DNA from: Maylandia zebra
Lineage: Eukaryota > Chordata > Actinopteri > Cichliformes > Cichlidae
Assembly: GCF_041146795.1 (NCBI RefSeq)
Contig: NC_135176.1
Location: 18,983,786 to 19,047,785, forward strand
Direction of reading: 5' to 3'
Length of the DNA stretch: 64,000 nt
In this document: positions 7,917-40,900 of the stretch, piece by piece
Layout of the letters: every line of letters begins with the position of its first letter
How positions within the stretch are numbered: the first letter of the stretch is position 1
Position numbers and translations under genes: made by a program
Notes under the pieces: model-generated
Told to the model about the DNA's origin: nothing
What the model saw: the letters and a program-made list of their open reading frames with translations, nothing else
Databases searched by the model: none

Positions 7917-10900
7917 TTATTCATCAGTCTTGGTGTAGACAGCGAGAGCGAAATCTGCAGTGATGTTGGGTTCATTGGTGGATGGGATGATCACATACTC
8001 TCCAGGTTCCAGACTGTGGAGTTCAGTGAGATCTCGCCGAGTGCTGTAAGTCTTTTCTGCCTTCACAGGCCTGTTCCTCTGAAAGAAATCCTGTTGCAGG
8101 CGTCCTTGTGGGGTCTGGGAGAAATATGAAGGAACTTTAGTGAAATACTCTTCTGAGTCTAAGTATACATTGTTATTAAAATGCTGAATTTACTTTCGGT
8201 GCACAGTCAAAGTTTCATATATTTGTTATTGTTTGCACTTACCCCTGGTGGAATCTGTTAATTGGAAAATGGTAAGAATAATATCATTAAACTGTTTCGC
8301 AGGAACCATTTTCCATAGTAACTTTAATGAATGTGAAATCAGTGAAGGCATTTTTTTATTGTTATTGTCTTACTAACTCAGCTGCTCAATTAGGAAAAGC
8401 GCTTGTGTTTTAATAACAGGGTGATACAATTGTTTTAAAGATTTAGTTTCTTGTCCTTTGGTAGTCAGTTGCAGTATTTAACAATTATTTAAATTAAAGG
8501 AAGCGGATTCAGAATGAATACCTTATAGATGGTAAGTGTAGTTTTGTGGCGGTGTATCTCAATGCGATTTCCCTGATGAGGTTTCTGCATCAGGGAGAGC
8601 ATGATGTTTTTGTCTCCTGGCTCCTTCTTGTCTATAACAGTCACTCGAATGCGATACTGAGGGTTTGTTGCAAAGGTGGCTACAGAGAGGAAACAGTTTA
8701 TTTGTTAGTTACAGGTTTTAGAAATTTATGGTGGGTTTTGTGTTTGTACAGGTAAATGAAAAATGTAAAAACCAAAATATTCCTTTAGTGATAGTTAAAG
8801 TTTAGAAAGGAATGAACTTGTCTTACAGTGTTTCACATTGCCACCTGCAGATGTCCCTGCTACCCAGCTGTCATCGTAAATCATGCAATTCCACTGACAT
8901 TTTAAGTCTCCATCAAGAAAGTTAGGGGTCTCACAGCAGATGTATACTTTAGCAAAACAGGAACAGAAGTCCTCCATTTGCATCCTGACAGCCAGATGAG
9001 CAGATAGAGATAAAATAGGAAATAAACATTAAATATCAAGCAGTAAGACATAAACTCTTTAGTAATGCATCAAAATGATTGTGTGATTGTTTTGTTTGTT
9101 TTTGAGTTTTTAAAATGCTTTTTTAAAATATTGAGAGTAAACAGTGTGCAAAATTTCTAATTTACCAGAACTCTCCGTCGTCACGGTCGAAACACTTTTT
9201 TTTAACTTCTGGACTTACTTTGTCCCACAAATCTGACCTGAGAACACAAAACAAATAAGTTAATGACAGACTTTAATGCAGCAAAACAGATATATCTAAT
9301 TTACAATTTCATTTGTCTTGAAGTTCTTAAGTTGTTCTTCTTTATAACAGAAAGCATCCTGTGGTCATCCACCACTATTGTTCTCTGTGGATGTCTGGCC
9401 ATTTTCATTTTGCACAGCACGCATATGTGTTTTCTCTCTCTCTCACTCTTTTTTTGATTGACCACTGATGTTGTTCCAACTATACTGTTTATCTCATGTT
9501 TAGAAATTCAAGTGCTGTGGTTTTGTAAAAAAACAGCTTTTAATTAAATAATAATAATAATAATGAGTTGATTATGTGTAGGTGCAACACTAGTAAAAAT
9601 TGTGTCATTGTCAGTGGTATATGGACATTGTTTGTTGTTTGATTAAGTCAAGTACTTGTCGCTCCATTTTCCGTTCCACTCCCGTCTGCCCCATGGGTTC
9701 ATGACTCGCACCAGTCGTACTTTAGAGGCGTTTAATTCCACCTTCAGATGAAATAATAAAGTTTTTTTTTTTTAAACGAAATTCTTCTTTATCATTATCA
9801 CCAAGTATTCTTTAATTGACACTGTTACAATTTTGCTGCAATTAACCTCGTACCAAAAGCCCCTTTCCTAGATGGAATATACTTTTGAAACTCAAGAATT
9901 TACCTCAGTGATGCCTGTGACAGAATAGGCATGCCTCATCACCAATCCATTGTTGGCCATTGCATCCTGGAAAAGACACGCAAGATAAATTATGTATTGA
10001 GGGTTCTTTTGTTTTGATTTTAATTATTGTTGTTTTGTTTTATTGTTTCTCTAGAAATTTATTTCTCACCTTTTTAGTCGAAGAGCAAATCAGTGATTTG
10101 CACTTAGTGGCTCTGCTTAGTGTCAGCCAAAGCTCATCGCAACTCGGTGCGTTGGGCTCTGTGGGATAGTAAATCTGGTTCACACCTCCAGTGAAATCTT
10201 TGAAGGCATCTGATGATGACCAACCACGCAGGTTTGCATATGAACCACAAAGTCTGAAGGAGACACACAGAGAAAGAAAAATATTTGTAAATCTTTTCTG
10301 AACCTTCTGAACTGATTTACGTGAAAGTGTGTGACGTGGTTCTGTACTTGGCATATGCCTTCTCCAGCAGAGGAGCCCAGAACTCATTTCCACATTTCGA
10401 GGACGCAAACAGTAACTGCTTGTTTTTCGTTGGCAGATTGTCATCAATGACAACATCTACCCACTTTCCAAACCACCAGAACTGAAACAGAGAAAACAGC
10501 TTAATAAGGATTAATAACCAGTGTGTTGTGTTTCTGTTTTGTAAAAGTATTCTTTAGACACATTTATTAATCCTTTGTTACCCGGAAGTGAAATATTCCT
10601 GCATAATCCTCAAAGGACTGATCCATTGGTACAACTTGTTCCATCAGATTTGTTTGAAAGGTCAGTGCAGATATTGCAGACACAAACCAGCAGTTACCTG
10701 ATAAAAGAAGGAAACTAATAGTTTTCTCAAGCTGATGGAGTTAAATTATGGAACAGTCTAAAAGCAGAAATAAAAGAAAGTAACAACATAAACCAAAACT
10801 AATTTTAAACAAATATAAGAATGAAGAAAACGGGGTTAACACAGGACCGTAATTGAAGGGATGTTTTGGTTTGTTGGTTTCATTATTTGTGAATCTGCAT

Positions 10901-11661
10901 ATTTACACATTCTGTCTTTATTTATATGAAAGAAACTATATTGTGATTTTTTTTTGGTTTTGTTTTGTTTTGGTTTCATTTGTTTGTTTAATTTAAGACT
11001 AAAAGAAAATTAAATGAATGAGATGTAAAATTTGAGGGGGTAGGGCCAAATAAGTGTGTACGTCTACCTACTCCCTTTCAAAAAAAATGGAATGATATTA
11101 TGTAATGATCGTGAACGTACATGTTTAAAATAAAAATGAACTGAACTGTGGAACATAGTTGTCATTGTCATTAGCTATAAATAAGAAAGTTTTGCTTACC
11201 CACGTTGCCTTGTCCAAAGTCAAATCGTGACATACCATCTGTACAGAAAGCAGGCTGATCCTTCTTTCCTCGTTCTCTCAATAAATCCTTGAAAAGACAG
11301 TGGAGAAAAATGTGATGTTGACAAGCATTTAAAAAGAATCTGTTTTTCCTACTGTACATAAATGCTAACTAACAATCCATCAGATTTGAAAGTGAAAGAA
11401 AAATAAATATAATTAAAATGATTTAACTGCTGGTCGAAGCCATTTCACTTCACTCTCCTGTGAGGAACTCATATCAGGCAGGTCACCCAAAGAAAGACCG
11501 TTTGGTGGGAACTCATTGTCCACAAACAGTTCTCCTTTGTGGAGGCAGTCAGCTTTTATCTGAGCGAAGTCCTGATTTTTTAACTTGGCAGGGTTGGAGG
11601 GGCTTCCCTCGCTGCCATCTGGGTAACGCAAGTTGACGAGACAAGTTTCAGATTTAGCCAT
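7917..11661 (-). CDS. Calpain-type cysteine protease without EF-hand domain, copy 1
   Basis: Twelve exons, in transcript order: 11428-11661, 11200-11287, 10582-10697, 10348-10481, 10070-10253, 9904-9966, 9656-9741, 9166-9237, 8827-8984, 8522-8679, 8243-8254 and 7917-8114. All have AG/GT borders and join in frame to 500 aa. Residues about 1-78 form the N-terminal region ([10 protein letters not shown]). The catalytic core follows with Gln and Cys in [12 protein letters not shown], His in MRHAYSVTG and Asn in VMNPWG, so the triad is complete. Classical calpains have GDCW and GHAYS here. Exons 9-12 make the C2-like domain III, ending [10 protein letters not shown]...VYTKTDE. The stop comes right there, so the penta-EF-hand domain of classical calpains is missing. 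Exon 11 is a 12-nt microexon (IPPG). The family cleaves cytosolic proteins in a calcium-dependent way; whether this member still responds to calcium is unknown. Confidence 0.88.
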
Positions 11662-14748: not shown

Positions 14749-16512
14749 CAACAATGAATGAAAAAAATTTCAGTAACTCTTTTATTCATAGTACATAGCG
14801 GTGCTATCTAGATTATCTACTTAAGAGATTTTGAATGACCTGGTCACACTGTAAGGTCTCTGATTGGAGTAGACAATACTGCATTAACCTGTTATGTGCA
14901 GAAGAGGGAAATTAGGTATCAAACGCTGCCTTAGATTTGAAGATGCACAAATCCTGAAACAGAAAGCCTGGGCTAGAGACCAGTTTAAGAAAGTTGATGA
15001 GTGTTGTCATCAGGGATGGGAACTGATAATAATTTTCTGACTCTCATTCCGTTACAAATATTACGTATTGATTTAATTCCTTGCCGATACTCTTATCGGT
15101 TCTTAATACCCGCCTTTGAGAGTTACCACCAATACTAAGAAGCATATTGTCTGCACCGGTATTTTCCTCCTCTGACACACTAACAGATAAGTGGGACTGT
15201 TAGACAAGCAGACTTCTCAATTCCCATCACTATTTGTCATAATACACTTTATGTGGTGTTCTTTTTCAGGAGTTCAGGAGATAATCTATTTTATTATTAT
15301 GCATTTAAATAGTTGGGTTGCAAAGCTGTGGACTTCTGTATGTCAGGCAGTTTGCACACAGAGAAGTGAATTACAGTTCATAACTCAAAGCATATATTAG
15401 ACACATGACATCGGGAAATGTTTGTGATTGGCTATGGGTGAGCAAATTCCACTGTGTTCTCCTTGTGACCTTTTGCATGTCAGTGGTCTTGGGTTTCCAA
15501 TCAGGGATCTTGTCCTGTGTGAGAAAACTTGGCAGGTGGCAGCTAGTCCTCATGCAGCAGTCGCCCCTACCTTATGTCGGAGCAGGAGATATTCACCCCT
15601 ATGCGTACAAACTGCAAATGAATTGTGCATGTGCAAAGCTGTTGCTTCCCTTGGCAACACTGCTCACAAAATGTCAAAGCAGCCTCTCCCTATTTGAAAC
15701 TGTGTAAGTGTTTAGCCATTTACCTCTCCTGCCTCTGAGTTAACCCTTCACACTGTGTGCTTATATCTAACGAGGAGTGTATCAACTCTATTATTAGCAT
15801 ATATTGGAATCAATGTTAAAAAGAAACTATCAAAAAACTTCTTTCTAACAGTTACCTCCTACTGAGTTTTTATTAAGTGAGATGATGCAAAGAGAGCTGG
15901 ATATGTTTTAACTTGCTTTGTAGTACATCCATCTGAACCACGTTTATATTGTTGTTGCCTTTTTAATGAAATTATTTGAAAACAAATGGTGAGACAGTGG
16001 AGGTGTCACATGGTGAATGTCTATGTTGCAGTCATATTTATATGAAAAAATGGTAGAAGGGACTGATCACAAAAGATTAACTGGTCTACGGTGATTCTCC
16101 AAGCAAATCAAAAAGGGTTATGTTGTCAGCCTTGTCACCCTGACAGAAAATGTCCTGCTTTCCCATTGGTGAAGGAAGACGTTATTCCTGTAACAGCAAG
16201 TCTCCTGATTTTGTTGGGTCTAGTTGTACATAGAAATGATGGACCACTGAAAGAAAAAAAAGAGGCTTTTTTTTTTTCAATTTAAATTTGTTAGGGTTAT
16301 GTCCAAAATCTGCGTTGTGCACAAAAAAAAACTAACCTGAATTGAAATTCAAATTAATACTTCAACAATCATGTTTTGCAGTGTTAGTCAGTAAGTGACT
16401 GGCTGCTCCCATATGGGATTAGAACGATGCCACCTTATCCCATAGTTCAGCCGATACGTATATACGCAGCGAACGTCATTGACAGGCTATGACAGCGTCC
16501 TTATGTGCTGAC

Positions 16513-18690: not shown

Positions 18691-19119
18691 AGTAGTAGTA
18701 GTAGTAATAGTATTATTATTATTATTATAATACAAGTCAGAGCTTTATAAAAAAAAAGTTGTGTTTTCGAAATTGGAGTTCAAGTTATTTTTACTTCCAA
18801 TAGTGTTAACACAATACACAGCTCATGAACAAGATTTATTTATAATTTTTTATTGTAAGTGGGCTAAAGCAGTTAATTAAAAGTAGTCTAACATAAATGT
18901 AAACGCTGCAATTTGATTATTTTAATAAACCATGTACTGTAACTTGGATGGATAAGATGCCGGCGTGACCACAGTGCACACGTCTGATGTCGCTCACAGT
19001 GGTCAAAGGGATTGCTCAGGGAGTTTGTGTGTTCGCTCAGACATGTGAAAAATTAGAGGGAACATTGGTTATGGCTAATGTCTATGCAGTAAAATAAATT
19101 TTCTCTGTTTACTTGTGAC

Positions 19120-19346: not shown

Positions 19347-19347
19347 A

Positions 19348-20053: not shown

Positions 20054-20054
20054 A

Positions 20055-20285: not shown

Positions 20286-20480
20286 TTTCACACAATCATG
20301 TGACCATTTTTAACCCAACCAACCGTATTTCACAGCCAGCAGAGATAACACAGCTCATGTCTGGCTAACAAATAGGAAATTACCCTATGGTGTCTTTTGT
20401 TAAGTAAATAATTCATGTAGTTTATTATCCTGAATTAATCATTTTAATCCTTCATTATGTGAAGGATTCTTTACATAATC

Positions 20481-22765
20481 TTATTCGTCAGTCTTGGTGT
20501 AGACAGTGAGAGTGAAATCTGCAGTGATGTTGGGTTCTTTGGTGGATGGGATGATCACATACTCTCCAGGTTCCAGACTGTGGAGTTCAATGAGATCTCG
20601 CCGAGTGCTGTAAGTCTTTTCTGCCTTCACAGGCCTGTTCCTCTGAAAGAAATCCTGTTGCAGGCGTCCTTGTGGGGTCTGGGAGAAATATGAAGGAATG
20701 TCTATGGTGGCGTCTCAGTGTACATTGTTATTAAAGTTATTAAAATGCTGAATTTACTGGTGTACTTTACACAGTCAAGTTTCATATATTTGTTATTGTT
20801 TGTACTTACCCCTGGCGGAATCTGTTAATTGGAAAATGGTAAGAATAACTTCATTAAACTGTTTCGGACGAACCAATTTCTATAGTGACTTTAAATAATG
20901 AATGCGAAATCAGCGAAGACCATTTTTTTTAAATTATCAATGTCATTATTGTCTTACTAACTCAGCTGCTCAATTAGGTAAGTACTTTTGTCTTAATTAC
21001 AGGATGATACAATTGTTTTAATAATTTAGTTTCTTGTCCTTCAGTATTCGGTTGCAATATTTAACAGTTATTTAAATTAAAGGAAGCACATTGAGAATGA
21101 ATACCTTATAGATGGTAAGTGTAGTTTTGTGGAGGCGTATCTCTTTGCGATTTCCCTGATGAGGTTTCTGCATCAGGGAGAGCACGATGTTTTTGTCTCC
21201 TGGCTCCTTCTTGTCTATAACAGTCACTCGGATGCGATACTGAGGGTTTGTTGCAAAGGTGGCTACAGAGAGTGAGGAAACATTCATCTTGTTAGTTACA
21301 TTTTAGAAATTTATTTCAAAAATTTGCACAGATAAAAGAAACATGTAATAACTATATTATTATTTTAGTGATAGTTAAAGTTTAGATAGGAATGAACTTG
21401 TCTTACAGTGTTTCACATTGCCACCTGCAGATGTCCCTGCTACCCAGCTCCCATCGTAAATCATGCAATTCCACTGACATTTTAAGTCTCCATCAAGAAA
21501 GTTAGGGGTCTCACAGCAGATGGATACGTAAGCAAAATAGGAACAGAAGTCCTCCATTTGCATCCTGACAGACGGATAAGCAGATAGAGATTTTTAAAAA
21601 AAAGGAAATAAAGATTAAATATCAACCAATAAGACGTATGCTCTTTGGTATTGCATCAAAACGATATGATTTTGATTTTTTGTTTTTGAGTTCTTAAAAG
21701 CTTTTTTTAACTATTGAGAGTAATCAGTGTGCAAAATTTAGAATTTACCAGAACTCTCCGTCGTCACAGTCGAAACACTTTTTTTTTTACTTCTGGACTT
21801 ACTTTGTCCCACAAATCTGACCTGAGAACACAAAACAAATAAGTTAATGACAGACTTTAATACAGCAAAACAGATATATTTAATATACAAAAATATATGG
21901 CAAAGTCTAGTGCAGCATTTCTTTCTTGAGGTCGATAAATGTTTTCCACTGTGCTGAACACTCTCCTTTAATATGTGACAATGTTTGTCATTTTTTTCAT
22001 TTGGCTGGAAGTTCTTGAGTTGTTATTCTTTATAATAGAAAGCATCCTCTGATCATCCACCACTATTGTTCTCTGTGGATGTCAGTTGTCAGTTGTGTAG
22101 GTGCAACGCTAGTACAAATTGTGTCATTGTCAGCAGTATTTGGACGTTTTATGTTGTTTAATTAAGTCAAGTACTTGTCGCTCCATTTTCCGTTCCACTC
22201 CCGTTTGCCCCATGGGTTCATGACTCGCACCAGTCGTACTTTGGAGTCATTTAATTCCACCTTCAGATGAAATAATGAAGTGAAGACATCAGGTATTGGA
22301 AATGCTTCAGTAATGGTATCACATTATCACATTCATTGATACTATCACAATTTTTGCAATTAAGTTTTCTTAGCTCTTGTTTTCACTCTTTCCCTATGCT
22401 GAATGCAAATTTCTAGGTTCATGGTTTACCTCAGTGACACCTGTGATGGAATATGCATGCCGCGTCACCAATCCAGTGTCAGCCGAAGGACCCTGAAAAA
22501 GACAGAACAAGGTTTGTTTTTTTAATCTATTGTTATTGATTTTTGTTGGGGGGGGGGGGGTTGTCTGTGTTTTACCTCTTCGTAGGAAGTCCAGCAACAA
22601 ATCAGTGATTGACACTGAGTTGCTCTGTTTAATGTGAGCCAAAGATCACCATGGCCAGCTGAGTTCATCTCCTTCAGTTTGTAAGTCTGGTTTACACCTC
22701 CAGTGAAATCTTTCCAGGCCTCTGATGGAAACCCAGCATGCATGTCTGCATACGAGCCACAAAGT
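20481..22765 (-). pseudogene. Calpain copy 2, 5'-truncated
   Basis: Homologues of exons 5-12 are present: 22576-22765, 22430-22492, 22175-22260, 21749-21821, 21407-21564, 21105-21262, 20810-20821 and 20481-20678. Exons 1-4, including the catalytic Cys exon, are missing. Just upstream (about 22870) the sequence switches to the region that lies upstream of copy 1. Exon 8 is 73 nt instead of 72 because its A/T homopolymer is one base longer, which shifts the frame. The His (TRHAYSITG) and Asn (VMNPWG) motifs remain. It ends VYTKTDE-stop like the other copies. No intact protease can be made. High similarity to copies 1 and 3 means recent inactivation. Confidence 0.88.
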
Positions 22766-25737: not shown

Positions 25738-28451
25738 GACCATTACAGACCAATGAGCCAATACAGACCATTTACCATTTTCACTTTAACAATGAATGAA
25801 AAAAATTTTCTTTAACTCTTTTATTCATAGTACATAGCTGTGCTATCTAGATTATCTACTTAAGAGATTTTGAATGACCTGGTCACACTGTAAGGTCTCT
25901 GATTGGAGTAGACAATACTGCATTAACCTGTTATGTGCAGAAGAGGGAAATTAGGTATCAAACGCTGCCTTAGATTTGAAGATGCACAAATCCTGAAACA
26001 GAAAGCCTGGGCTAGAGACCAGTTTAAGAAAGTTGATGAGTGTTGTCATCAGGGATGGGAACTGATAATAATTTTCTGACTCTCATTCCGTTACAAATAT
26101 TACGTATTGATTTAATTCCTTGCCGATACTCTTATCGGTTCTTAATACCCGCCTTTGAGAGTTACCACCAATACTAAGAAGCATATTGTTTGCACCACTA
26201 TTTTCCTCCTCTGACACACTAACAGATAAGTGGGACTGTTAGACAAGCAGACTTCTCAATTCCCATCCCTATTTGTCATAATACACTTTATGTGGTGTTT
26301 TTTTCAGGAGTTCAGGAGATAATCTATTTTATTATTATGCATTTAAATAGTTGGGTTGCAAAGCTGTGGACTTCTGTATGTCAGGCAGTTTGCACACAGA
26401 GAAGTGAATTACAGTTCATAACTCAAAGCATATATTAGACACATGACATCGGGAAATATTTGTGATTGGCTATGGGTGAGCAGATTCCACTGTGTTCTCC
26501 TTGTGACCTTTTGCATGTCAGTGGTCTTGGGTTTCCAATCAGGGATCTTGTCCTGTGTGAGAAAACTCCTCCCTACTCCGAGTTGTTACCAGACATGGCA
26601 GGTGGCAGCTAGTCCTCATGCAGCAGTCGCCCCTATCTTATGTCGGAGCAGGAGATATTCACCCCTATGCTTACAAACTGCAAATGAATTGTGCATGTGC
26701 AAAGCTGTTGCTTCCCTTGGCAACACTGCTCACAAAATGTCAAAGCAGCCTCTCCCTATTTGAAACTGTGTAAGTGTTTAGCCATTTACCTCTCCTGCCT
26801 CTGAGTTAACCCTTCACACTGTGTGCTTATATCTAACGAGGAGTGTATCAACTCTATTATTAGCATATATTGGAATCAATGTTAAAAAGAAACTATCAAA
26901 AAACTTCTTTCTAACAATTACCTCCTACTGAGTTTTTATTAAGTGAGATGTTGCAAAGAGAGCTGGATATGTTTTAACTTGCTTTGTAGTACATCCATCT
27001 GAACCACGTTTATATTGTTGTTGCCTTTTTAATGAAATTATTTGAAAACAAATGGTGAGATAGTGGAGGTGTCACGTGGCTATGTTGCAGTCATATTTAT
27101 ATGAAAAAATGGTAGAAGGGACTGATCACAAAAGATTAACTGGTCTACAGTGATTCTCCAAGCAAATCAAAAAGGGTTATGTTGTCAGCCTTGTCACCCT
27201 GACAGAAAATGTCCTGCTTTCCCATTGGTGAAGGAAGACGTTATTCCTGTAACAGCAAGTCTCCTGATTTTGTTGGGTCTAGTTGTACATAGAAATGATG
27301 GACCACTGAAAGAAAAAAAAAAGAGGCTTTTTTTTTTTCAATTTAAATTTGTTAGGGTTATGGCCAAAATCTGCGTTGCGCACAAAAAAAACTAACCTGA
27401 ATTGAAATTCAAATTAATACTTCAACAATCATGTTTTGCAGTGTTAGTCAGTAAGTGACTGGCTGCTCCCATATGGGATTAGAACGATGCCACCTTATCC
27501 CATAGTTCAGCCGATAGGTATATACGCAGCGAACGTCATTGACAGGCTATGACAGCGTCCTTATGTGCCGACACCGGTGTTTTAGCTAGCAAAGCGGCGT
27601 GGCTGATGTGGAGTGAAGCCACGTTAATGACAACGTGTACAAGCATTGGAGATGTGAGCAGGACAGACGGAACAATTGATGGAAAAACTGTGGACTTTAT
27701 ACCAGTTTTTCAATTGTGTTGATAGGCCACGTAAAACCAGAGTAATGATAAAAATAAATGCAATGTTTGGTTTTCTTCCTGAATACTATCGTTGTTTATA
27801 TTTACTGCAGGAAGAAACGGCTAAATTGGCGTTTTATAAGGAAAAAGGCTCGAAAGCCTGTGAGCAAAAACAAACTCCACCCCCCACCTTTCCTATTGGT
27901 CCAAAAAAGTACCATGTCGACCAATCAAAAAATGATATGGCAACGTGGCATCTTGTTGTTAAGAAACGGGGGGAAGTTTTAGGAGTGACGGTGGTGTTTT
28001 GAGATGTGAGAGATTTGAGACGTTTAGCGCAAATCTTGTGTAGTCAGTGTGCAGTGTAGTCAATAGTTTTGTTGTGTGTGTCAGAACAATGAGGCGACTG
28101 AATGTTACAGGTGTTACAGGAGTGATACATCTCCTGTTGTCAGGCCTGCAGGTATCAGGCTGTGTTCTCCTTTATCTCATAGTGGACAGAAATGTTTTTT
28201 GGAGTGACACAAATAATTTGTGTGGCATCAGATTTGATGCAGAACAGCTGATTGTTCTGTAAATAGTTTGAAATGTTTATTTAAAAATACATTGGCTGCG
28301 TTTAAAAAAAAATAGCTGCAAAAAACTTTGTTGTTTGCCAAACTGAGTTACTTTTTTGAAGAAGTAACTATATAATTAATTGCCCAAAATTGGTCATTAT
28401 ATACTGTATTTTGCAGACAGAGAGTTACAGACTCTCTCCCAGACTCATACG

Positions 28452-28926: not shown

Positions 28927-28996
<70 letters not shown>

Positions 28997-29509: not shown

Positions 29510-31040
29510 CTGACTCTGAATGTGTTATGGATGTTGGTACCAGAGAGGCTGTTCTGAGTATTTCCGAAACTGCTGTTCTACTTGGATTTCGCCGCAAAAC
29601 GAAATCTTTGGACAAGATGGTCCACAAAGACCAAGTATTCAGTGAGGTGCTTGAATGGCCAGGCTACTTCAAGTTGATAGCAAGGCAACAGTAACAGCAC
29701 TTGTATGCAGGTATTCAGGAATGCAGGAGAGCATCTCTGAACACACAGCACTTCAAAGGTCGAAGCAGACGGCCCAAAGATGAAGGATACCTCACCAGGT
29801 ACCACTCCTGTAAGCTGAGAAAAGGAAAAATACCCTACTGTGGAGGTATGTAACAACGACAGGAGCGGTCTCAGTGTCTCACTCCAACAACTTTATTAAC
29901 TGACAGAACTTCACATATAGTCAGCGCCAAAATCTCCACCCCCACACTTCCTTTCAACTTGTGTGTGAGTGGAGCCACCTGGTGGTCCGCCACACATACC
30001 CCCCCTTGAACACACAGTCAGGTCTCCATTCAGTCCAGGACCCTGGGTCTAAGCAAACGACCCGCACGACTGAACCTGGGAGGGAGAGAACAGGCAGAGG
30101 AAGGTCCATCCTGTGAACGAGGCTGGTGAAGGCGAGCAGGAAAGGCAGGAGGAGGCTCAAACGTTGGTGGTCCGGGGGTAGTCCTGGGGGGAAAACCAGA
30201 GACTGTCAACCCCAGCGCAGGAGGTCGGCTGAAACTCCACGAAGAGCAAACTGAGCTTCTACGTGCATGAACCATGAAGGAGGATCGTGAAGCCAAAAAT
30301 CCGGCAATTTAAGCGCCACAGCAAACGCAGCCATCGGCGGAGGTGAAGGTCCGGCGGCCGCCGATGCTTCCAGGCCAGAGCTGGCTTCGTCGTCGAGCCT
30401 TAGCATGTTCACTACAGGGGTCACCAATGTGGAGGTATGTAACAACGACAGGAGAGGTCTCAGTGTCTCACTCCAACAACTTTATTAACTGACAGAACTT
30501 CACATATAGTCAGCGCCAAAATCTCCACCCCCACACTTCCTTTCAACTTGTGTGTGAGTGGAGCCACCTGGTGGTCCGCCACACTACAATCTTTATATAT
30601 GGATGGTAGGTCATAAACAACACAAAAAACATGGACCCATTCTACCTTGTGTTAATGGTTCAGTCTGCTGGACCCTTAAGCATCCCTTCAACACCATAGC
30701 CCACATGAGTATTGCTGCTGACCATGTCCATCCCTTTAGGCCGCAAAATAACTGTTTTCTGATGGCTATTTTCAACAAGATAACACATCATGTGACAAAA
30801 CTCATCCCAAACTGGTTTCCCAAACATGACTGTGAGTTCACTGTACTCAGTTGGCCGTCACAGTCAACAGATCTGGAAATGGTGGAATCGTAAATTCACA
30901 TCATGGATGTGTAAATGTGTGATGCTATCATATGAACATGGACCAAAATATTTGAGAAATAACCAAAAAAGAATTAAAGCAATTCTGAGGAAAAAAGGGG
31001 ATGAAACCCAATACTTGCAAGTATAACTAATGACCATTGT
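29510..31040 (+). mobile_element. Decayed Tc1-like transposon interrupted by an LTR element
   Basis: Two parts (29510-29838 and 30584-31040) are collinear with a common teleost Tc1-like transposase gene. The second part keeps a recognisable 'SIAADHVHPF' region and the downstream 'FTVLSWPSQS' region. The frame is not continuous. The LTR element 29839-30583 sits between the parts with a CTAC duplication on each side. Confidence 0.75.
29839..30583 (-). mobile_element. Short LTR retrotransposon fossil (Ty3/gypsy-like, internally deleted)
   Basis: Two 156-bp direct repeats (29839-29994 and 30428-30583) with TG...CA ends differ at about one visible position, so insertion was recent. CTAC is duplicated at both flanks. 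On the minus strand the LTR carries an AATAAA signal. The interior has a primer-site-like TTGGTGACCCC next to the 5' LTR, a short gag-like open frame resembling Ty3/gypsy (LPDFWLHDPPSWFMHVEAQF) and a G-rich polypurine tract before the 3' LTR. No pol region is present, so it is non-autonomous and broken. Confidence 0.85.
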
Positions 31041-32050
31041 GTATGAATGTTGTTTAGTTTTGTTTACACTTTAAAAACTGTCACACTTGCATATTACACA
31101 CAATTGTAAATGACAATAGTAACACTTATCAAAAGAAACTGCATATTTACATTTTAAAAAATGTATGGAAATTACGGAAATATACTTGCCTCATCCCATG
31201 TCAGGTGGATCACTCCATCAGATGATTTGCTCTTGAAAATGTCTGTGGAGAAAAGACCCATGCAGTCTAAGCGCATTTTAAAATAGATAAATGATGTGTG
31301 TTTATTCTTTTAAATTATGTGATGTGTGGTTGCCATGTCACTTACCTGACATCCTGTCCAGACGCAACATGACAGTGATGAACTCCTCCAAAGAGGTGGT
31401 GGAGAAGCCTGAATACCAAAACATCATTAGCCCCACAATGCCACCATTCACATCCATTCCTGGTAAAGACACGAGTAGAAAGTGAGGAGTTCTCCAGTTA
31501 TAACCCAAATTAAGTTTCGTATGTGTTACTACACTTAAATGTGTTAACGTGTGACAATAATTAGTGTTACCTGCAGCTTCAATTGCCTTCTGGAGCTCAT
31601 CGTCAGACAGGGATCCATTTTCATTGACATCAGAGTGATGAAAGAGATTCTACAAACAGAATGAACTTACATTTAGAAGCAAACAGTAGTTTGAACATAT
31701 CTCATTTTTAAACTGCGACTGTTCTTTTGAGGAAAAAAATCTCTAAAAGTTGGAGAAATAATTAAATTCCACCTAAACCTTGGAGGCTATACTTGCTGCA
31801 TTACTTTGTATTCTTGAATCTTCTTCCAGAAAATTGAGAATTCAGCGAAGGTCGTTGTCATCCTTTGGTCGAGCTGTGCAGGTTAAGGATATCTTACAAA
31901 AAGCTCTTATTTCTAGTAGAAATGTGGCCAGCTGTCAGTTTCATAATCAACTTTGATCATTTTGGGTGCAGCATAGGGCTGGGCGATATGGCCTAAAATC
32001 CAAATCACGGTATAATTTGAAGCATGTGCGGTAACAATATATATTGTGAT

Positions 32051-33867
32051 CAGTGTTGGGTAAGTTACTTTAAATTAGTAACTTAGTTACATTACTAGTT
32101 ACTTCTATCAAAAGTAACTCAGTTACTTCAAGTTACTCGTTACTTTCAAAGTAACTAGTTACTAGGGAAAGTAACTTTGGTTTTACTCAGAATTCTCTTG
32201 TTAATGTGTTTCTTCCATAACTTTGCCAGTCTTCTAGCTTGCTTACTTGCCACAAGTGCACTGTGCCACCTACCAATAGAAAGGAAAAGATAATGTGCAT
32301 ATTTCCACGAGAGAAATCCCACGCCTGGACCGTCATTGACTGCTGCCATGATTCTATCCTACGTCACAGCGTCATGTGCGCCCTTTACATCCAACACAAA
32401 AACTGCAGTCGTGGTGCTTTCGATTGTACTCAGAACTCTGAAATTCTGCCTTCTGAATAGGAAGATGTAGGTAACACCAGACTGAAGATGAGCTGCATAC
32501 AGGGCTGGACTGGGACAAAAAATTTTTGACTAGAGACCAGCCCACCATTATAGGAAAAATCATAAAGCCTCACAACAAACGCTGTTGTAACAGTGATGTT
32601 CACTGTCTTGATGGTATATATGTATCAATCTATCAATCGTTTGTTGTAAGATTCAGATAATTATTTTTTAAAAGCTAGACATTTTAAATGAGAATAAGAA
32701 AGAAAAGTATTTCCTTGAGCCCACCGCTCCCTGTTAATGCCCTACCTGGCCCCCCTGGCAAAACTTTGCTAGATCCGCAACTGCACAGTTACCAGCTGTT
32801 AGCTACCTAAAAAAGGATCCTGGTGTTAATTGTTTCTCAGAAACAGTTCATAACTTCCCTTCAACTCATTCATGTCACCTAAAAGGTAAACCTGTTTCTC
32901 CATCACCTGTTCAGCTCTGATGATCCAGTAAGGACATCTCCTGGTTTCATCTTCATGTTTCCCTCTCACCAGATAACCAAACGATATCATGACCAGCAGC
33001 TTTTTTGCAGCTGTGGCTCCAGCCAACACCAGCTGGTAGTAGAAATTAATATTAAATAAATTCTAACAACAGCTGATCAAGCTTAAACGTGCTGCTGTTG
33101 TTTAACACGACATCGGCTGGTTTCCTCTTTCTGGCGCAAAGTGGGCGATAAACAAACAAGAGAGCCAATCAGCTGATCATTGATCAGTTTCAGGATTGAA
33201 GTAGAAACAGAAGAGGGAGGGGGGAGAATGAGAGAAGAAGAGGCAGCTGTGCAGCAAAGACACAGAATAACTCCAGCTTTGTGCCTTTTTCACTGTAGCT
33301 GAATTACGGGACAAACTGTTCCTTTTCACCTCAATAAGAAACGCGTAATATTTTCTCTGAATACCAGACGGGACGGTTGGCAACTCTAATAACTTATGAA
33401 CAAAATAAAGTTTAACATCATTAACTTCATAGCACCACCCAGCTGTATAGAAACTCCGTCATGCTAGCTAGTACGCAGTACGGAAAAAGTCAGCATAACG
33501 AAAATAAACTCCACCTAAACTTGGTTTATATCTGACCCAGAGAGACTGCAGGTCATAACTTCTTACCTGAAGTTCAGTTCACACTTGGACCGGTGGTCGC
33601 CTCGGGTCTCTTTTCCTCCTGCGTCCCCTTCCCCTCCTCCACCTGCTGGCCTCCACCACTTGCTAATGTTACTGAATCTGTGAAAGCTCCGCAATAGCCA
33701 CCACACGAAGTAACGAGTAACGAGCCTATCTAAATCCCAGTAACGACTAACGCGTTCCTGATTTTGGAATAATAACTAGTTACCGTGCTCGTTACCACAA
33801 TAATAACGTAGTTACTGTAACGCGTTACTGTAACGCGTTACTTAATAACGCGTTAGTCCCAACACTG
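32051..33867. mobile_element. 1.8-kb non-autonomous hAT
   Basis: Inverted ends CAGTGTTGGG / CCCAACACTG, with 8-bp flanks ATTGTGAT (32043-32050) and ATCGTGAT (33868-33875). Subterminal regions are rich in GTTACTCGTTAC-like repeats. It is inserted in an older repeat that begins near 31976 (GGGCTGGGCGATATGGCC). No transposase frame. Confidence 0.85.
32405..32880 (+). repeat. Segment repeated in inverted orientation at 36505-36965
   Basis: The interior of the hAT shares two blocks (about 32405-32560 and 32820-32880) with 36790-36965 and 36505-36580 on the opposite strand, in the same relative order. Shared motifs include CTGAAATTCTGCCTTCTGA and GGGCTGGACTGGG. Confidence 0.65.
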
Positions 33868-34202
33868 ATCGTGATATATTCTTTTCTTCTTTATAACGTA
33901 TTTTAAACACTATAAGGCACACTTAAAGTCCTTTAATTCTTTCAAAAATCGACAGTGTGCCTCATGTATGAATTCTGGTTGTGCTTACTGACCTTGAACC
34001 GATTTTATGTAGTACACGGCGCGCAGAAATCTGTCAAAAATGTTTTAGTACGACTTTGGTAAGCTATGAAGGCGCACTGCTTGATGGATTGTCGGAGTAT
34101 TATGGCTGACGTAGTCAGGAGCCTTGTGGAGGAATCTGTGTCCAAAACTCTGTCTTCTTCAGGTCCCAAGTCAAACAAACACTGCGGCATCACTGAGAGT
34201 TA

Positions 34203-34498
34203 AAAACTGTCTAAGTTCTTTCATTTTTAATAAAATGATCAGCGTTGCTGCTTTACCAGGTGTAACAATTAAGTTTAACATCCAGACATCCATGAAAACA
34301 GAATTTATTAAATTCAACGGAGTTAGAAGTTAGCAGGAAGTTAGCTCGCTAGTTTCGACCTAAACATGATATGCCATGTTCTAACTGAGAGAATAAAATG
34401 TACAACTCTGCTATCACTTCTAACATAAATGAAGAGGGAAAACTAAACAGCAGTGATGTTTGTAGTGTTACTGAAATTGGACTAGCTGGTATATAATG
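34203..34498 (+). repeat. Dispersed repeat, copy 2 (pair with 5313-5605)
   Basis: See the partner copy at 5313. Here it continues from a segment near 33900-34190 that resembles the interior of a common teleost repeat (TATAAGGCACAC motif). Confidence 0.6.
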
Positions 34499-34788
34499 AC
34501 GTCCTATGTGATTGTTAGCAAAACAGCTACATTAGCATAACATTAGCACAGTGAAGCTGAAGGACGAACACTAACTTTTTTCCACTCCATAAAAGTTAAC
34601 GTGAGGGTTTCTGGTGGTTAGGGACAAATGCAATTGCATGGCAGGATGTTGTAAACGGACCAAACTTCAGTCAGGATAATAAGAGCATATAAGAGTGAAA
34701 CAGATATAAGATCCCTTGAAAAATTATATAATGAAACTTGTATGTTTTGGATACTTACTAAAGCAATGAAAGTAATGAGAAAGTGGCC

Positions 34789-34837
34789 ACTTTCATGAGT
34801 AAATCATGTAAGCCTTATATGATTTACTCATGAAAGT
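34789..34837. repeat. Perfect 19-bp inverted repeat with 11-nt loop
   Basis: ACTTTCATGAGTAAATCAT and its exact reverse complement flank GTAAGCCTTAT. A third partial direct copy (CACTTTCATGAGTAAT) follows at once. Confidence 0.85.
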
Positions 34838-35025
34838 CGCCACTTTCATGAGTAATCACATATAAGTTTTTACTATTTCTTTTCCATATGGGCAGCGTAG
34901 AGTTTAAACAAGGCATGGTTGGGATCATCGTCAGGGATTTTCTCCTTGTCTTTGTTACAGATCTACAAGAGAGCAGTAGTGTAAAATAGAGACCAAAACT
35001 GACACATCAAATTATATGACCACTG

Positions 35026-35165
35026 TAGGGACTAACGCGTTATTAAGTAACATTACAGTAACTACGTTATTATTGTGGTGATGAGCACGGTAACTAGTTA
35101 TTATGCCAAAATCAGGAACGCGTTAATCGTTACTGGGATTTAGATAGGATTGTTATTCGTTACTT
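35026..35165 (-). mobile_element. Solo end of the 32051-33867 hAT family
   Basis: Contains GGGACTAACGCGTTATTAAG and following GTAACTACGTTATTATTGTG-like sequence, the reverse complement of the right end of the hAT at 32051-33867. The other end is absent. Confidence 0.6.
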
Positions 35166-35220
35166 CATGTGTTGCGTTCGACTTACCTCGGAAATCGAAA
35201 CACGGGGGTAACATCACCTG

Positions 35221-36345: not shown

Positions 36346-36504
36346 ATAACAACAGAGGTTGATAAAATGGACCAATACGGCAAGGCCGTGGTGATCCACT
36401 TAGTAAAGTAAATCCATTGGGCATCAACAACAACAATTCTGACGGCTAAAGAACCAAATGGGACAGAAAAAAAAAAGGATATATGAGGTGATATAAGGTG
36501 ATAT

Positions 36505-36965
36505 GAATGGGTTGAAGGGAAGTTAAGAACTGTTAAGAACTGTTTCTAAGAGACAACTTACACCAGGATGCTTTTTTTCATTAAGAGGGAAAAGGGGGAG
36601 CAGAAAGAAATACTTTTCTTTCTTATTCTCATGTGTTGTAGATAGTTCAGGAAGTTAAGTCGATGAAGCAGTTTTGGCTAAGTACTGTTTAGAATACCAG
36701 AATAGGGAGGGTGGTGTAGGTTTAAGTTTATTAGATAGATTCACATATATAAACAAGACAGTGTACATCACTGTCACAACAGTGTATGTTTTCATTCAAA
36801 GGCTTTATGGTTTTTCCTATAAGGGCGGGCCGGTCTCTAGTCAAAATGCCCGGACCGATTTTTTTGACCCAGTCCAGCCCTTTATGCAGCTCATCTGCAC
36901 TCTGGAATTACCCACATCTTCCTACTCAGAAGGCAGAATTTCAGAGTTCCGAGTATAATCGAAAG
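36505..36965 (-). repeat. Inverted copy of 32405-32880
   Basis: See 32405-32880. The two segments face each other across about 3.6 kb. Confidence 0.6.
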
Positions 36966-36989
36966 CACAATGACTGCAGTTTCCTATGG

Positions 36990-37480
36990 CGTTATTTTTG
37001 TGCCACTATTCTGAGCGCACGTAAAAAATATTTTGAGCGCACGTAAAATAAGTTTGCAGGTGCAAGTGTTGCATTTTGAGGAGAAATTTATTTTGAGCGA
37101 AGAAAAGTTAAATTTGAATGAACAAAATTCATTGCTGCGTGCAAAAAATTTATTTCAGTGTTTGCTATTATCCATACACACACACAAAAGCAGCCCCTCT
37201 CGCTCAGTTTTTGCATTTGCGCTTGCTCGCAATGTGTTGCTTGCGCTCTCAACATTACTGCCCATGTGCGTTCAACTCTTTCTGTACACCGTTATATTTG
37301 TGCCACAAAACCAGCCAATCACAGACTTGGATGCAAAAAAATCTGATTGGCGGTTTTGGTCTCCAATCAGCTCAAAATGACGAAATGCAATATCTCAGAA
37401 TGCATTTCGTCCAAAACTCAAACGAGGCAGTGGCTGAGGAACACAGAGTGGCGGAGTTTGAAATATTACTCTTCATGGGT
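36990..37480. other. Unclassified repeat-like sequence
   Basis: Contains recurring GAGCGCACGTAAAA and AAATTTATTT motifs like a dispersed teleost repeat. No coding exon recognised. Confidence 0.4.
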
Positions 37481-37486
37481 CACAAA

Positions 37487-37637
37487 AGCATGTCTTCAGA
37501 TGGATTTCAACCAGCTCACTTTGAGACACCTGAACAAAGTTCGAAACTGTGAGATAATTGAACTGATCAAGTCAGTTCTTGACAAATTTATTCTCACTTT
37601 GTGTTCAGAAAACCAATGATCAACACTGAACAATGTC
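37487..37637 (-). pseudogene. Partial copy of the snoRNA host gene (exon 4 to mid-SNORD65)
   Basis: About 150 bp aligns collinearly with 49168-49318. It covers most of host exon 4, its acceptor, the intron and the 3' part of a SNORD65-like snoRNA, including the D box at 37605-37608 (TTATTCTCACTTTGTGTTCA is shared). Similarity stops before the guide segment and the C box, so the snoRNA is broken. It lies 340 bp from the 3' end of calpain copy 3, about 11.7 kb from the parent. Confidence 0.88.
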
Positions 37638-37973
37638 TAATCCTAACCCTCGGCCTAAACCTAACTATAACCAAATCGTAACCCAAACAATAAAACCCCA
37701 TTTTGACTCTCAAAAATGCCTTCAAACTTGTGGGGATGGGCATTTTGTCCCCATAAGTAAGTTTTAAGTCTGACATCATTAGCTGTTTCCGGGTCCAAAC
37801 TTTGCTTCTGGTCCACTCTGCGGCACCACTAGCAGAGATAACACAGCTCATGTCTGGCTAACAAATAGGAAATTACCCTATGGTGTCATTTGTTAAATAA
37901 ATAATTCATGTATTTTATTATCCTGAGTTAATCATATTAATCCTTCATTATGTGAAGGATTCTTTACATGATA

Positions 37974-40900
37974 TTATTCATCAGTCTTGGTGTAGACAGC
38001 GAGAGCGAAATCTGCAGTGATGTTGGGTTCTTTGGTGGATGGGATGATCACATACTCTCCAGGTTCCAGACTGTGGAGTTCAATGTGATCTCGCTCAGAC
38101 CTGTAAGTCTTTTCTGCCTTCACAGGGCTGTTCCTCTGAAAGAAATCCTGTTGCAGGCGTCGTTTTGGAGTCTGGCAGAAATATAAAGGAATATCTATAG
38201 TGAAAAACTCTCCTGAGTCTCAGTGTACATTGTTATTAAAGTTATTAAAATGCTGAATTTACTTTCGGTGCACAGTCAAAGTTTCATATATTTGTTATTG
38301 TTTGCACTTACCCCTGGTGGAATCTGTTAATTGGAAAATGGTAAGAATAACTTCATTAAACTGTTTCACAGGAACCATTTTCCATAGTAACTTTAATGAA
38401 TGTGAAATCAGCGAAGACATTTTTTCATTATTATTGTCTTACTAACTCAGCTGCTCAATTAGGTAAGTACTCATGTCTTCATAACAGGGTGATACAATTA
38501 TTTTAAAGATTTGGTTTCTTGTCCTTCAGTATTCAGTTGCAGTATTTAACAATTATTTAAATTAAAGGAAGCACATTGAGAATGAATACCTTATAGATGG
38601 TAAGTCTAGTTCGGTGGAGGCGTATCTCATTGCGATTTCCCTGATGAGGTTTCTGCATCAGGGAGAGCATGATGTTTTTGTCTCCCGGCTCCTTCTTGTC
38701 TATAACAGTCACTTGAATGCGATACTGAGGGTTTGTTGCAAAGGTGGCTACAGAGAGGAAACAGTTTATTTGTTAGTTACAGGTTTTAGAAATTTATGGT
38801 GGGTTTTGTGTTTGCACAGATAAAATAAATATGTAATAACTATATTATTATTTTAGTGATAGTTAAAGTTTAGATAGGAGTGAACTTGTCTTACAGTGTT
38901 TCACATTGCCACCTGCAGATTTCCCTGCTACCCAGCTGCCATCGTAAATCATGCAATTCCACTGACATTTTAAGTCTCCATCAAGAAAGTTAGGGGTCTC
39001 ACAGCAGATGGATACGTAAGCAAAATAGGAACAGAAGTCCTCCATTTGCATCCTGGCAGACAGATGAGCAGATAGAGATTTAATATATATATATATATAT
39101 ACATAAAATATCAACCAATAAATAATAAGATGTAAACTCTTTGGTAATGCATCAAAATGATCATATGATTTTTTGTTTTTGAGTTTTTAAAAGCTTTTTT
39201 AAAATATTGAGAGTAATCAGTGTGCAAAATTTAGAATTTACCAGAACTCTCCGTCGTCATGGTTGAAACACTTTTTTCGAACTTCTGGACTTACTTTGTC
39301 CCACAAATCTGACCTGAGAACACGAAACAAATAAGTTAATGACAGACTTTAATGCTGCAAAACAGATATATTTTATATACTATATATATATATATACTAC
39401 ACATACAGCATTTCTGTTCTTGAGGTCGATAGATATTTTGCACTGTGCTGAAAACTCCCCTTCAATATGTGAGAGTGTTTGTCACTGTTTTTAATTTGGC
39501 TGGAAGTTCATAAGTTGTTCTTCTTTATATTAGAAAGCATCCTGTGATCATCCACCGCTATTGTTCTCTGTGGATGTCTGGCCATTTTCATTTTGCACAG
39601 CATACCTATGTTTTCTCTCTCTCTCTTTTGTTGACCACTTATTGTTCCAGCTATACTGTTTATCTTATGTTTAGAAATTCTTGAACTGCCTGTTGTAGGT
39701 TTGCATACACAGCTTCTGATTAAATTATAATTACTATTTTTTTTTTCAGTTTTATGTCTGTCTATTTATCATAACACTGTGAGTTGATTATGTGTAGGTG
39801 CAACGCTAGTACAAATTGTGTCATTGTCAGCGATATATGGACGTTGTTTGTTGTTTAATTAAGTCAAGTACTTGTCGCTCCATTTTCCGTTCCACTCCTG
39901 TTGGCCCCATGGGTTCATGACTCGCACCAGTCGTACTTTGGAGCCGTTTAATTCCACCTTCAGATGAAATAATGAAGTGAAGACATCAGGTATTGGAAAT
40001 GCTTCAGTAATGGTATCACATTATCACATTCATTGATACTATCAAAATTTTTGCAATTAAGTTTTCTTGGCTCTTGTTTTCACTCTTTTCCTATGCTGAA
40101 TGCAAATTTCTAGCTCCTTGGTTTACCTTAGTGACACCTGTGATGGAATAGGCATGGCCATTCACCAATCCAGTGTCAGAGACCAAAGCACCCTGAAAAA
40201 GACAGAACAAGGGTTGTTTTTTTTTAATCTATTGTTATTGATTTTTGTTGGGGTTTTTTTGTTTGTCTGTTTTTTACCTCTTCGTGGTAAGTCCAACAAC
40301 AAATCAGTGATTGGCACCTAGTTGCTCTGTTTAATGTGAGCCAAAGATCACCATGGCCAGCTGAGTTCATCTCCTTCAGGTTGTAAGTCTGGTTTACACC
40401 TCCAGTGAAATCTTTGCAGGCCTCTGATGGAAACCCAGCATGCATGTCTGCATACGAGCCACAAACTCTGAAGGAGGCACCCAGAAGGAGAAACATTTTT
40501 AAATCAATGACATTCATATCAGAAATGTGACCTTCTAAACTGATTTACATGAAAGTGTGAGAGATGATTATTTACTTGGCATATGCCTTCTCCAGCAGAG
40601 GAGCCCAGAACTCATTTCCACATTTCGAGGACACAAACAGTAACTGCTTTTTGATCGTTGGCAGATTGTCATCAATGACAACATCTACCCACTTTCCAAA
40701 CCTCCAGAACTGAAACAGAGAGGACAGCTAAGAATCAATCAGAGGTGGCAAAAGTACCGAGATTCTGTACTTTGATCTAGATTAGATTTCTGTACTAGGA
40801 GTAAAGATACTAGTGTTAAAAAATACTCCAGTAAAGGTTGATGTACTGACTCCACTTCTTCACTTTCTTTTTAAAAGTAATAAAGTAAGAAAGTAAAATG

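Follow-up and report, generated by a model that had tools for sequence, protein, structure and literature searches.

Why does an array of calpain copies stop directly after domain III, and what has become of the penta-EF-hand (PEF) domain of classical calpains? The window, that is the whole 64,000-nt stretch of Maylandia zebra DNA analysed here, carries three calpain copies on its minus strand, flanked by NSRP1 and by a gene with an SH2_2 domain, which we take to be SUPT6H. The copies are as follows.

7917..11661, minus strand: copy 1, 12-exon calpain gene, 500 aa, CysPc and domain III (C2L), without PEF
11661-11428, 11287-11200, 10697-10582, 10481-10348, 10253-10070, 9966-9904, minus strand: copy 1, exons 1-6
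9741-9656, 9237-9166, 8984-8827, 8679-8522, 8254-8243, 8114-7917, minus strand: copy 1, exons 7-12
20481..22765, minus strand: copy 2, 5'-truncated calpain pseudogene, exons 5-12 only
21821-21749, minus strand: copy 2, exon 8 with a frameshift
37974..42866, minus strand: copy 3, 12-exon calpain gene, 503 aa, CysPc and domain III, without in-frame PEF

Copies 1 and 3 have GT-AG at all introns and uninterrupted open frames of 500 and 503 aa, with no frameshift and no internal stop over 1503 and 1512 coding bases. Exons 1-4 of copy 2 were not found by tblastn, and the active-site Cys is therefore missing; its exon 8 carries a 1-bp insertion (73 bp vs 72 bp). The first-pass annotation had credited all three copies with the exon structure and intact triads, which is true of copies 1 and 3 (12 exons, GT-AG) and untrue of copy 2, where exons 1-4 with the Cys are gone. 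Thus, only two of the three copies are gene-like and copy 2 is a pseudogene. That annotation mentioned neither this state nor the stranded PEF exons described below.

The proteins predicted from copies 1 and 3 have the CysPc core of a classical calpain (Pfam Peptidase_C2, 1.7e-107 in copy 1 and 2.5e-110 in copy 3) and a C2-like domain III (Calpain_III, 8.2e-32 and 4.3e-32, reaching the profile end at 137/137). In these 2 of the 3 copies the catalytic triad Cys-His-Asn is present as GNCW, HAYS and NPWG. A C-terminal PEF domain is absent from the protein, as all three copies stop after domain III, and by predicted coding sequence copies 1 and 3 are truncated calpains with isolated CysPc and C2L. 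When copy 3 (residues 19 to 499-500 of 503) is compared with PDB entries, the best matches are classical (calpain-1 5.8e-110, calpain-2 5e-109) and calpain-5 is last among the 19 matches listed. Residues Gly101, Asp106, Glu185, Glu302, Asp309, Asp331 and Glu333 of the core Ca sites (list for 1KXR) are kept, by alignment in copy 3 and as read off the sequence in copy 1. To call the lineage calcium-sensor-free, as had been proposed, is too strong, since residues of both protease-core Ca sites are retained. Because the triad and the residues of these two non-EF-hand sites are kept, the truncated enzyme is probably still Ca2+-responsive through its core, without PEF control; it would probably also do without PEF-mediated pairing with the small subunit.

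The end of the open frames is the same in all three minus-strand copies: VYTKTDE and then TAA after domain III, as originally claimed.

7917..8114, minus strand: terminal exon 12 of copy 1, TAA at 7917-7919, context GATGAATAAGA (GATGA-ATAAGA)
20481..20678, minus strand: terminal exon 12 of copy 2, TAA at 20481-20483, context GACGAATAAGA (GACGA-ATAAGA)
37974..38171, minus strand: terminal exon 12 of copy 3, TAA at 37974-37976, context GATGAATAATA (GATGA-ATAATA)
7857..7862, minus strand: AATAAA at +55, copy 1
20421..20426, minus strand: AATAAA at +55, copy 2
37914..37919, minus strand: AATAAA at +55, copy 3
7787..7916, minus strand: 3' flank of copy 1 (130 nt), formerly intronic, possibly serving as 3' UTR now
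20351-20480 and 37844-37973: counterparts of this flank in copies 2 and 3

The stop contexts given at first are correct for copies 1 and 3, and that of copy 2 differs by one silent base. The AATAAA reported about 55 nt past the copy 1 stop is there, and the same +55 is seen in copies 2 and 3; the motif lies no more than 66 nt from 140 of the 1458 minus-strand TAA triplets and is weak evidence alone. Between copies 1 and 3 the 3' flank has 5/130 differences vs 123/1258 (9.8%) in introns (Fisher p 0.025), and between copies 1 and 2 it has 6/130 vs 60/444 in introns 8 and 10 (p 0.004). For copies 2 and 3 the comparison (7/130 vs 91/966) is not significant (p 0.14).

How could such a stop arise? 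An ancestral GATGA|GTAAGA had been described as a perfect donor that one G-to-A change turned into a stop codon, and both halves of this statement need correction. TGA|GTAAGA agrees with the donor consensus at 5 of 9 positions, only its intron side being good; in copies 1 and 3 the 22 genuine donors agree at 3-8 of 9, the first donor of copy 1 being weak (3/9). In copy 3 the +5 G of the donor-like context is gone as well, and in every copy exon 12 closes with an in-frame stop and lacks a donor there. With the intron in phase 2, the donor GA|GTAAG would have carried an in-frame TAA (GA|G TAA G) whatever the +1 base, so that a G-to-A change would remove the donor and not create the stop. Presumably the human CAPN3 junction lies about 3 residues further on than the one proposed here, which counts against a match. 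Still, the proposed GA|GTAAGA junction resembles that of human CAPN3, where a phase-2 intron interrupts a Glu codon close to the domain III end (available part of PMC8645139). The same part of that source places c.1746-20 at 20 nt before the exon 14 acceptor, so by our own arithmetic CAPN3 exon 14 begins at c.1746 = 3 x 582, inside Glu582.

Five calpain PEF exons lie downstream of copy 3, on the same strand and in the right order (31873-31190 and 27305-27279).

31805..31873, minus strand: PEF exon A, 69 bp, phase 0/0, LDQRMTTTFAEFSIFWKKIQEYK, end of EF2; AG before, GT after
31571..31649, minus strand: PEF exon B, 79 bp, phase 0/1, EF3, loop DVNENGSLSDDE
31346..31459, minus strand: PEF exon C, 114 bp, phase 1/1, EF4
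31190..31242, minus strand: PEF exon D, 53 bp, phase 1/0, EF5, GC-type donor GAG|GCAAGT
27279..27305, minus strand: PEF exon E, the last, 27 bp, WSIISMYN and stop
16220..16246, minus strand: second exon E, downstream of copy 2, identical at 27/27
29735..35218, no strand assigned: 5.5-kb stretch with exons A-D beside copy 3, absent beside copy 2 (junction 19348)

All five have AG acceptors, GT or GC donors and open, compatible phases, and exons A-E splice in frame into 113 residues through to the calpain C-terminus. Their sizes (69/79/114/53/27 bp) are close to the 69/79/117/59/27 bp of the CAPN3 PEF exons. Exon A scores 39 vs 3 for the next among 129 equal-length AG..GT/GC candidates; an EF-loop deletion considered for it was dropped, 69 bp being the classical length. 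The EF loop of exon B has the canonical pattern, while Pfam EF-hand matches stay below the curated cut-offs. Spliced A-E match CAPNS1 (1alv) at 2.8e-12, CAPN1 at 1.6e-10 and CAPN3 at 2.2e-10; the match to 1qxp (3.4e-20) sums two, as that chain has two PEF domains. It is the addition of exon E that moves the CAPNS1 E-value from 1.3e-10 to 2.8e-12 and lets the alignment reach the calpain C-terminus, WSIISMYN and stop here vs WLQLTMY in calpain, and we regard the exons as a remnant of a calpain-type PEF domain. Exon E has two matches within the window vs 0 expected from shuffles. In the flank of copy 2 the segments on either side of the 5.5-kb stretch adjoin: 18804-19348 corresponds to 29190-29734 (98.3%) and 19348-20054 to 35219-35925 (97.9%). 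No PEF relics were found beside copy 1 in the window. A block near 57 kb (56885-57964), either a fourth unit or a transposon, has homology that ends about 60 nt short of the place of the last PEF exon.

The remnant does not comprise all five EF hands, as EF1 and the first half of EF2 were found neither by tblastn with CAPN1, CAPN2 and small-subunit segments nor by a scan for AG..GT/GC stretches that are free of stops and measure exactly 58 or 65 bp, a scan that misses changed lengths. That scan had 174 and 132 minus-strand candidates; over 27300-37973 scores peaked at 1 and 2, and with chance scores of up to 19 elsewhere and on the plus-strand control no EF1/EF2 candidate stands out. The EF1 exon of classical calpains is 78 bp long, and one tentative relic has this length.

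34885..34962, minus strand: possible EF1 exon relic, tentative, 78 bp, ICNKDKEKIPDDDPNHALFKLYAAHM

Its score was reached by 33 of 500 shuffles and is not significant, and Pfam gives no match. As PEF exons persist downstream of copy 3 and beside copy 2, the ancestor had a PEF domain; the earlier proposal of descent from a classical calpain is thus supported by five exons near copy 3 and one by copy 2.

The best reading of the locus, to which we give a probability of roughly 0.6, is a classical calpain truncated by donor loss and then duplicated in tandem. The ancestor would have been a classical calpain gene encoding protease core, domain III and PEF, and it would have lost the 5' splice site that follows the final exon of domain III. 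This donor, GA|GTAAG in phase 2, would leave an in-frame TAA (GAG-TAA or GAA-TAA) in the unspliced transcript; translation would halt there and the transcript could end at the +55 AATAAA, within the former intron. The predicted product is a protease of about 500 aa made up of just the core and domain III. Tandem duplication would then have led to three copies, two with full open frames and one decayed, and the PEF exons would have been left behind, five by copy 3 and one by copy 2. We infer donor loss as the first step, and likewise the +1 base, the polyadenylation site, the event order and the biochemistry. At somewhat less than even odds, we further suggest that the PEF-less protease arose by capture of a donor-preset stop together with an intronic poly(A) signal, that the short enzyme, its core Ca sites retained, then spread as a tandem array in which selection kept the frames open and amino acids changed fast, and that the PEF fossils date the switch.

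Are copies 1 and 3 functional genes? Between them dN/dS is 0.78 overall (95% 0.57-1.19), which gives no purifying selection on amino acids, and 0.93 (95% 0.59-1.62) without exon 5; in the dead copy 2 exons 9-12 have similar values (0.96 and 0.68). This is different from classical calpains, for which the available text of PMC4043111 describes persistent purifying selection. Nevertheless, exons of copies 1 and 3 have 61/1256 differences vs 123/1258 in introns (p 2.5e-6; exons 5-6 and introns 2-6 excluded), and indels number 2 in exons, both in frame, vs 22 in 1596 intron bp. In neutral simulations with 2000 runs per setting, an intact gene survived in 0 to 0.05% of them; chance alone would not be expected to leave copies 1 and 3 open. 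That both are recent pseudogenes from which nothing is translated agrees with the dN/dS near 1, with the death of copy 2 and with the weak first donor of copy 1, and yet we find it distinctly unlikely, given the undamaged coding bases, the GT-AG introns and the exon-intron contrast. The earlier idea that the truncated gene then duplicated fits the common stop; it is unproven because tracts seem to have been exchanged inside the array (copy 1 exons 5-6), and gene conversion could have spread the stop among copies.

For relics that predate the duplications the PEF exons are in suspiciously good condition, which counts against the best explanation. In simulations such intactness is kept in 5-8% of runs over the post-duplication time and in 0.05-0.45% over twice that. 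One may therefore ask whether these exons are still used, in a long isoform of copy 3 made by an unseen route or in a separate small PEF gene. Their open frames, compatible phases, spliceable ends and canonical loop in exon B would agree with this. On the other hand, exon 12 ends without a donor and with an in-frame stop in all copies, and EF1/first-half-EF2 exons of the 58-/65-bp type were not found in 27300-37973, where the 69-bp exon was found with a wide margin; continued use seems quite unlikely to us. It is unlikely, too, that the exons come from another calpain gene of the array that lost its 5' part, the short calpains having been truncated earlier and elsewhere. The array has indeed been rearranged (copy 2 lost exons 1-4, and 5.5 kb is gone from its flank), and copy 1 has no PEF relic found beside it, but the relics sit immediately downstream of copy 3, on the same strand and with no intervening calpain exon found, and the last PEF exon recurs at the equivalent place near copy 2. 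The notion that ATAAGA is a rare U2-type AT-AC donor at which splicing persists was rejected as very improbable: AT-AC introns with an ATAAG donor exist, whereas copy 3 has ATAATA and the PEF exon set found downstream is incomplete. A stop acquired by another route deserves more weight and is possible, although we lean against it. Here a short isoform made by intronic polyadenylation would come first and the donor would decay later, or a nonsense change or an indel would replace the +1 G-to-A. A phase-2 GTAAG donor left unspliced always reads TAA and a short protein thus needs no mutation, and AATAAA stands at +55 in 3/3 copies, though this motif is common by itself, as counted above. Truncation by donor loss followed by tandem duplication stays our preferred reading.

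With classical calpains (CAPN1/2/3/8/9/11-14/17) the copies share core, domain III and triad, and the stranded exons encode a PEF domain of calpain type. Atypical calpains are separate lineages, several with other C-terminal domains, and the PDB matches of copy 3 set it apart from them. A pattern search for relatives elsewhere gave 0 matches in viral contigs and 7 in genome contigs, with 0 confirmed. Among the titles and abstract starts listed in a literature search that covered few subscription journals, none described an array of PEF-less or tandem fish calpains. Classical calpains are defined by the PEF domain in the available part of PMC4043111, and the copies here stop before it. The atypical CAPN5, 6, 7 and 10 and the C. 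elegans clp genes likewise have no PEF, and because they lack EF hands they were at first believed to be insensitive to Ca2+ (PMC3315469, accessible portion). Intron-terminated transcripts can carry truncated coding regions, as the part of PMC10960005 at hand states; the array differs from such isoforms in that the genome itself no longer has the donor, which would leave the short form as the sole product. Closest in architecture are the truncated calpains AplTrunc1-3 of Aplysia, with catalytic domain and C2L only, as in copies 1 and 3. According to the available sections of PMC5650170, the truncated set is from invertebrates, some sequences being possibly incomplete assemblies; some members have been suggested to be shortened classical forms, and their activity, regulation and function are an open question. 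The locus amounts to a natural experiment on the action of a classical calpain deprived of its PEF domain. It also points to a general and easily surveyed route, since a GTAAG donor in a phase-2 intron comes with a stop codon built in, and loss of splicing would give a clean truncation one codon past the exon. Truncated calpains are already known; in this vertebrate case the route of truncation is visible, a single stretch of DNA still showing the stop, the junction and what remains of the discarded PEF exons.

The short calpains of this locus most likely descend from a classical calpain. Three copies (n=3), all read from the minus strand, are flanked by NSRP1 (plus strand; Pfam NSRP1_N, 6.2e-25) and, at the right window end, by a probable SUPT6H gene recognised from its SH2_2 domain (Pfam, 1.5e-17). 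The sequence is that of a vertebrate, and what it contains suggests a teleost fish.

Calpain copies in the window
11661-7917, minus strand: copy 1, 12 exons with GT-AG introns, open frame of 500 aa
22765-20481, minus strand: copy 2, begins at exon 5, exon 8 with a 1-bp insertion
42866-37974, minus strand: copy 3, 12 exons with GT-AG introns, open frame of 503 aa

Copies 1 and 3 share a 12-bp microexon and contain Peptidase_C2 and Calpain_III, the latter match reaching the end of the Pfam profile; alignment to calpain-1 covers residues 19 to 499 of copy 3. The first donor of copy 1 is weak (3/9). The first-pass annotation had credited all copies with intact catalytic triads, which holds for two of the three (copies 1 and 3). 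Copy 2, which lacks exons 1-4 and with them the active-site Cys, is therefore a pseudogene. In front of it the 5′ flank of copy 1 (11847 onward) recurs at 98% (22765-22884) and joins intron 4 about 110 nt upstream of exon 5, so exons 1-4 went by an internal deletion.

Several other features of the array were observed. Exons 5-6 and introns 4-6 of copy 1 (9742-10347) are 22-40% different from copy 3, with a protein identity of only 57% in exon 5; the other compared exons and introns of these two copies differ by about 3-13%, and copies 2 and 3 are much closer in the same region (4-13%). The tract looks like gene conversion from an unseen paralog. Upstream of copy 3 there is an uninterrupted transposase frame of 348 aa (43709-44755; DDE_3 2.7e-16, HTH_38 4.1e-5, under its cut-off), presumably of a Tc1/mariner-type element. 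A fourth, partial block upstream of copy 3 (56885-57964) resembles 16305-18410 and 27366-28444, and its similarity stops about 60 nt short of the place of the last exon for the penta-EF-hand (PEF) domain; it may be left over from one more unit of the array, or be a repeat.

It had been proposed that a G-to-A change turned a perfect splice donor after domain III, GA|GTAAGA at the end of exon 12, into a stop codon. All three copies do end VYTKTDE-TAA as described, copy 2 reading GACGA-ATAAGA and not GATGA-ATAAGA. The change did not create the stop: GTAAG after GA already reads GAG-TAA, and TAA is present with G or A at +1. What the G-to-A at +1 would have done is to take away the donor, leaving the protein unchanged (GAG to GAA). 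Since TAA is there whichever base stands at +1, an isoform made by intronic polyadenylation could have supplied the short protein while the donor was still in place. The proposed donor scores 5/9, which is short of perfect, and copy 3 (ATAATA) has lost the +5 G too, as expected for an unconstrained donor. Measured from the last domain-III strand, the CAPN3 and fish junctions are offset by about three residues. In PMC8645139, c.1746-20 lies 20 nt upstream of the exon 14 acceptor and Glu582 is the first codon affected by exon 14 skipping. By our arithmetic on these positions base 1746 is the third of codon 582, so the human CAPN3 intron is in phase 2 and interrupts a Glu codon, and the same holds for the proposed fish GA|GTAAGA.

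The AATAAA reported about 55 nt past the stop of copy 1 is there, and it stands at +55 in 3/3 copies; the motif by itself is common here, being found within 66 nt of 140 of the 1458 minus-strand TAA triplets in the window. The first 130 nt past the stop tend to diverge less than introns. Copies 1 and 3 differ at 5/130 positions against 123/1258 in introns 1 and 7-11 (p 0.025; introns 2 and 3, of unequal lengths, were skipped and introns 4-6, of the mosaic tract, left out). For copies 1 and 2 the figures are 6/130 and 60/444 (p 0.004), the reference here being introns 8 and 10, which show the lowest divergence and were picked after seeing the data; for copies 2 and 3 they are 7/130 and 91/966 (p 0.14, not significant). 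A perfect 9-bp hairpin, AATCCTTCA-CATAA-TGAAGGATT, is found shortly past the stop in all three copies (7882-7904, 20446-20468 and 37939-37961).

The proposal presupposes that the ancestral gene encoded a PEF domain. Downstream of copy 3, on its strand, there are five PEF exons, four of them inside 31873-31190 and the last at 27305-27279, with matching phases and sizes of 69, 79, 114, 53 and 27 bp; human CAPN3 exons 20-24 have 69, 79, 117, 59 and 27 bp. Spliced, they give 113 aa (LDQRM...WDEWSIISMYN*) reaching the natural C-terminus and matching CAPNS1 (2.8e-12), CAPN1 (1.6e-10), CAPN3 (2.2e-10) and the mu-like calpain 1qxp (3.4e-20, a sum of two matches, as this chain has two PEF domains). Without the last exon the CAPNS1 match is 1.3e-10, thus the 27-bp exon belongs. 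Each exon scored better against calpain reference segments than its own shuffles, of which 0, 0, 2, 2 and 5 of 500 reached its score, and general EF-hand models of Pfam gave matches only under the curated thresholds (best 3.2e-4). The EF loop of the second exon (79 bp) follows the canonical pattern, and the donors are GT save that of the fourth exon, GC (GAG|GCAAGT). No exon for EF1 or for the first half of EF2 was found beside copy 3, so the locus probably cannot encode a complete PEF domain any more. A 78-bp open stretch behind a good acceptor at 34885-34962, ICNKDKEKIPDDDPNHALFKLYAAHM, which has no donor and no significant match, may be a decayed EF1 exon.

The flank of copy 2 at 18804-19348 and 19348-20054 equals that of copy 3 at 29190-29734 and 35219-35925 (about 98%); the 5.5 kb absent at the join at 19348 contain four EF exons, and the last PEF exon is kept downstream of copy 2 at 16246-16220 (identical, 27/27). 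We take copy 2 to have lost this stretch by deletion, since at 29735 the sequence resembles an uninterrupted run of a repeat; an insertion of 5.5 kb beside copy 3 is the formal alternative. Beside copy 1 no PEF exon was found in the window. In simulations where the PEF exons had been useless since duplication, all five stayed open with splice sites in 5-8% of runs, and over twice the post-duplication time in 0.05-0.45%; the GC donor of the fourth exon, if formerly GT, is a break in this test. Given such low survival, the PEF domain was probably lost not long before the duplications, if before them at all, or else its exons later had some use. The intactness of these relics is the main tension within the proposed explanation, truncation of a classical calpain by donor loss followed by tandem duplication.

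The reading frames of copies 1 and 3 were kept, as follows from three results. Exons 1-4 and 7-12 differ at 61/1256 sites against 123/1258 in usable introns (p 2.5e-6), the two coding indels are both in frame (introns, 4-6 included, have 22 in 1596 bases), and neutral simulations, with 2000 runs for each of four settings, left an intact gene in 0 to 0.05% of them. The dN/dS between these copies is 0.78 overall (95% 0.57-1.19), 0.93 (0.59-1.62) without exon 5 and 1.02 (0.62-1.99) without exons 5-6; the values for dead copy 2 in exons 9-12 are 0.96 and 0.68. In the same exons, 22.5 replacement differences separate copies 1 and 3, and 2.5 silent ones. Silent sites differ by 5% (exons 5-6 left out) against 10% in introns, which conversion or constraint might explain. 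The dN/dS values between the copies give no sign that amino acids are under purifying selection, unlike vertebrate classical calpains, for which PMC4043111 reports that such selection is persistent.

The product had been called calcium-sensor-free, and this does not agree with its protease core. The calpain-1 core Ca sites listed in PMC4057710 are Val99, Gly101, Asp106 and Glu185, and Glu302, Asp309, Met329, Asp331 and Glu333. Gly101, Asp106, Glu185, Glu302, Asp309, Asp331 and Glu333 are kept in the alignment of copy 3, and copy 1 has the same motifs, so seven core residues are retained in both; positions 99 and 329, which bind Ca via backbone oxygen, differ from calpain-1. With these residues kept, a Ca2+ response via the core is likely, while PEF control and CAPNS1 pairing would be lost with the absent domain. 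No confirmed relative was found among the viral contigs and genome contigs searched. Since the encoded protein is without PEF, its domains fall outside the definition of classical calpains; its make-up, catalytic plus C2L, is the same as that of the truncated calpains described in PMC5650170.
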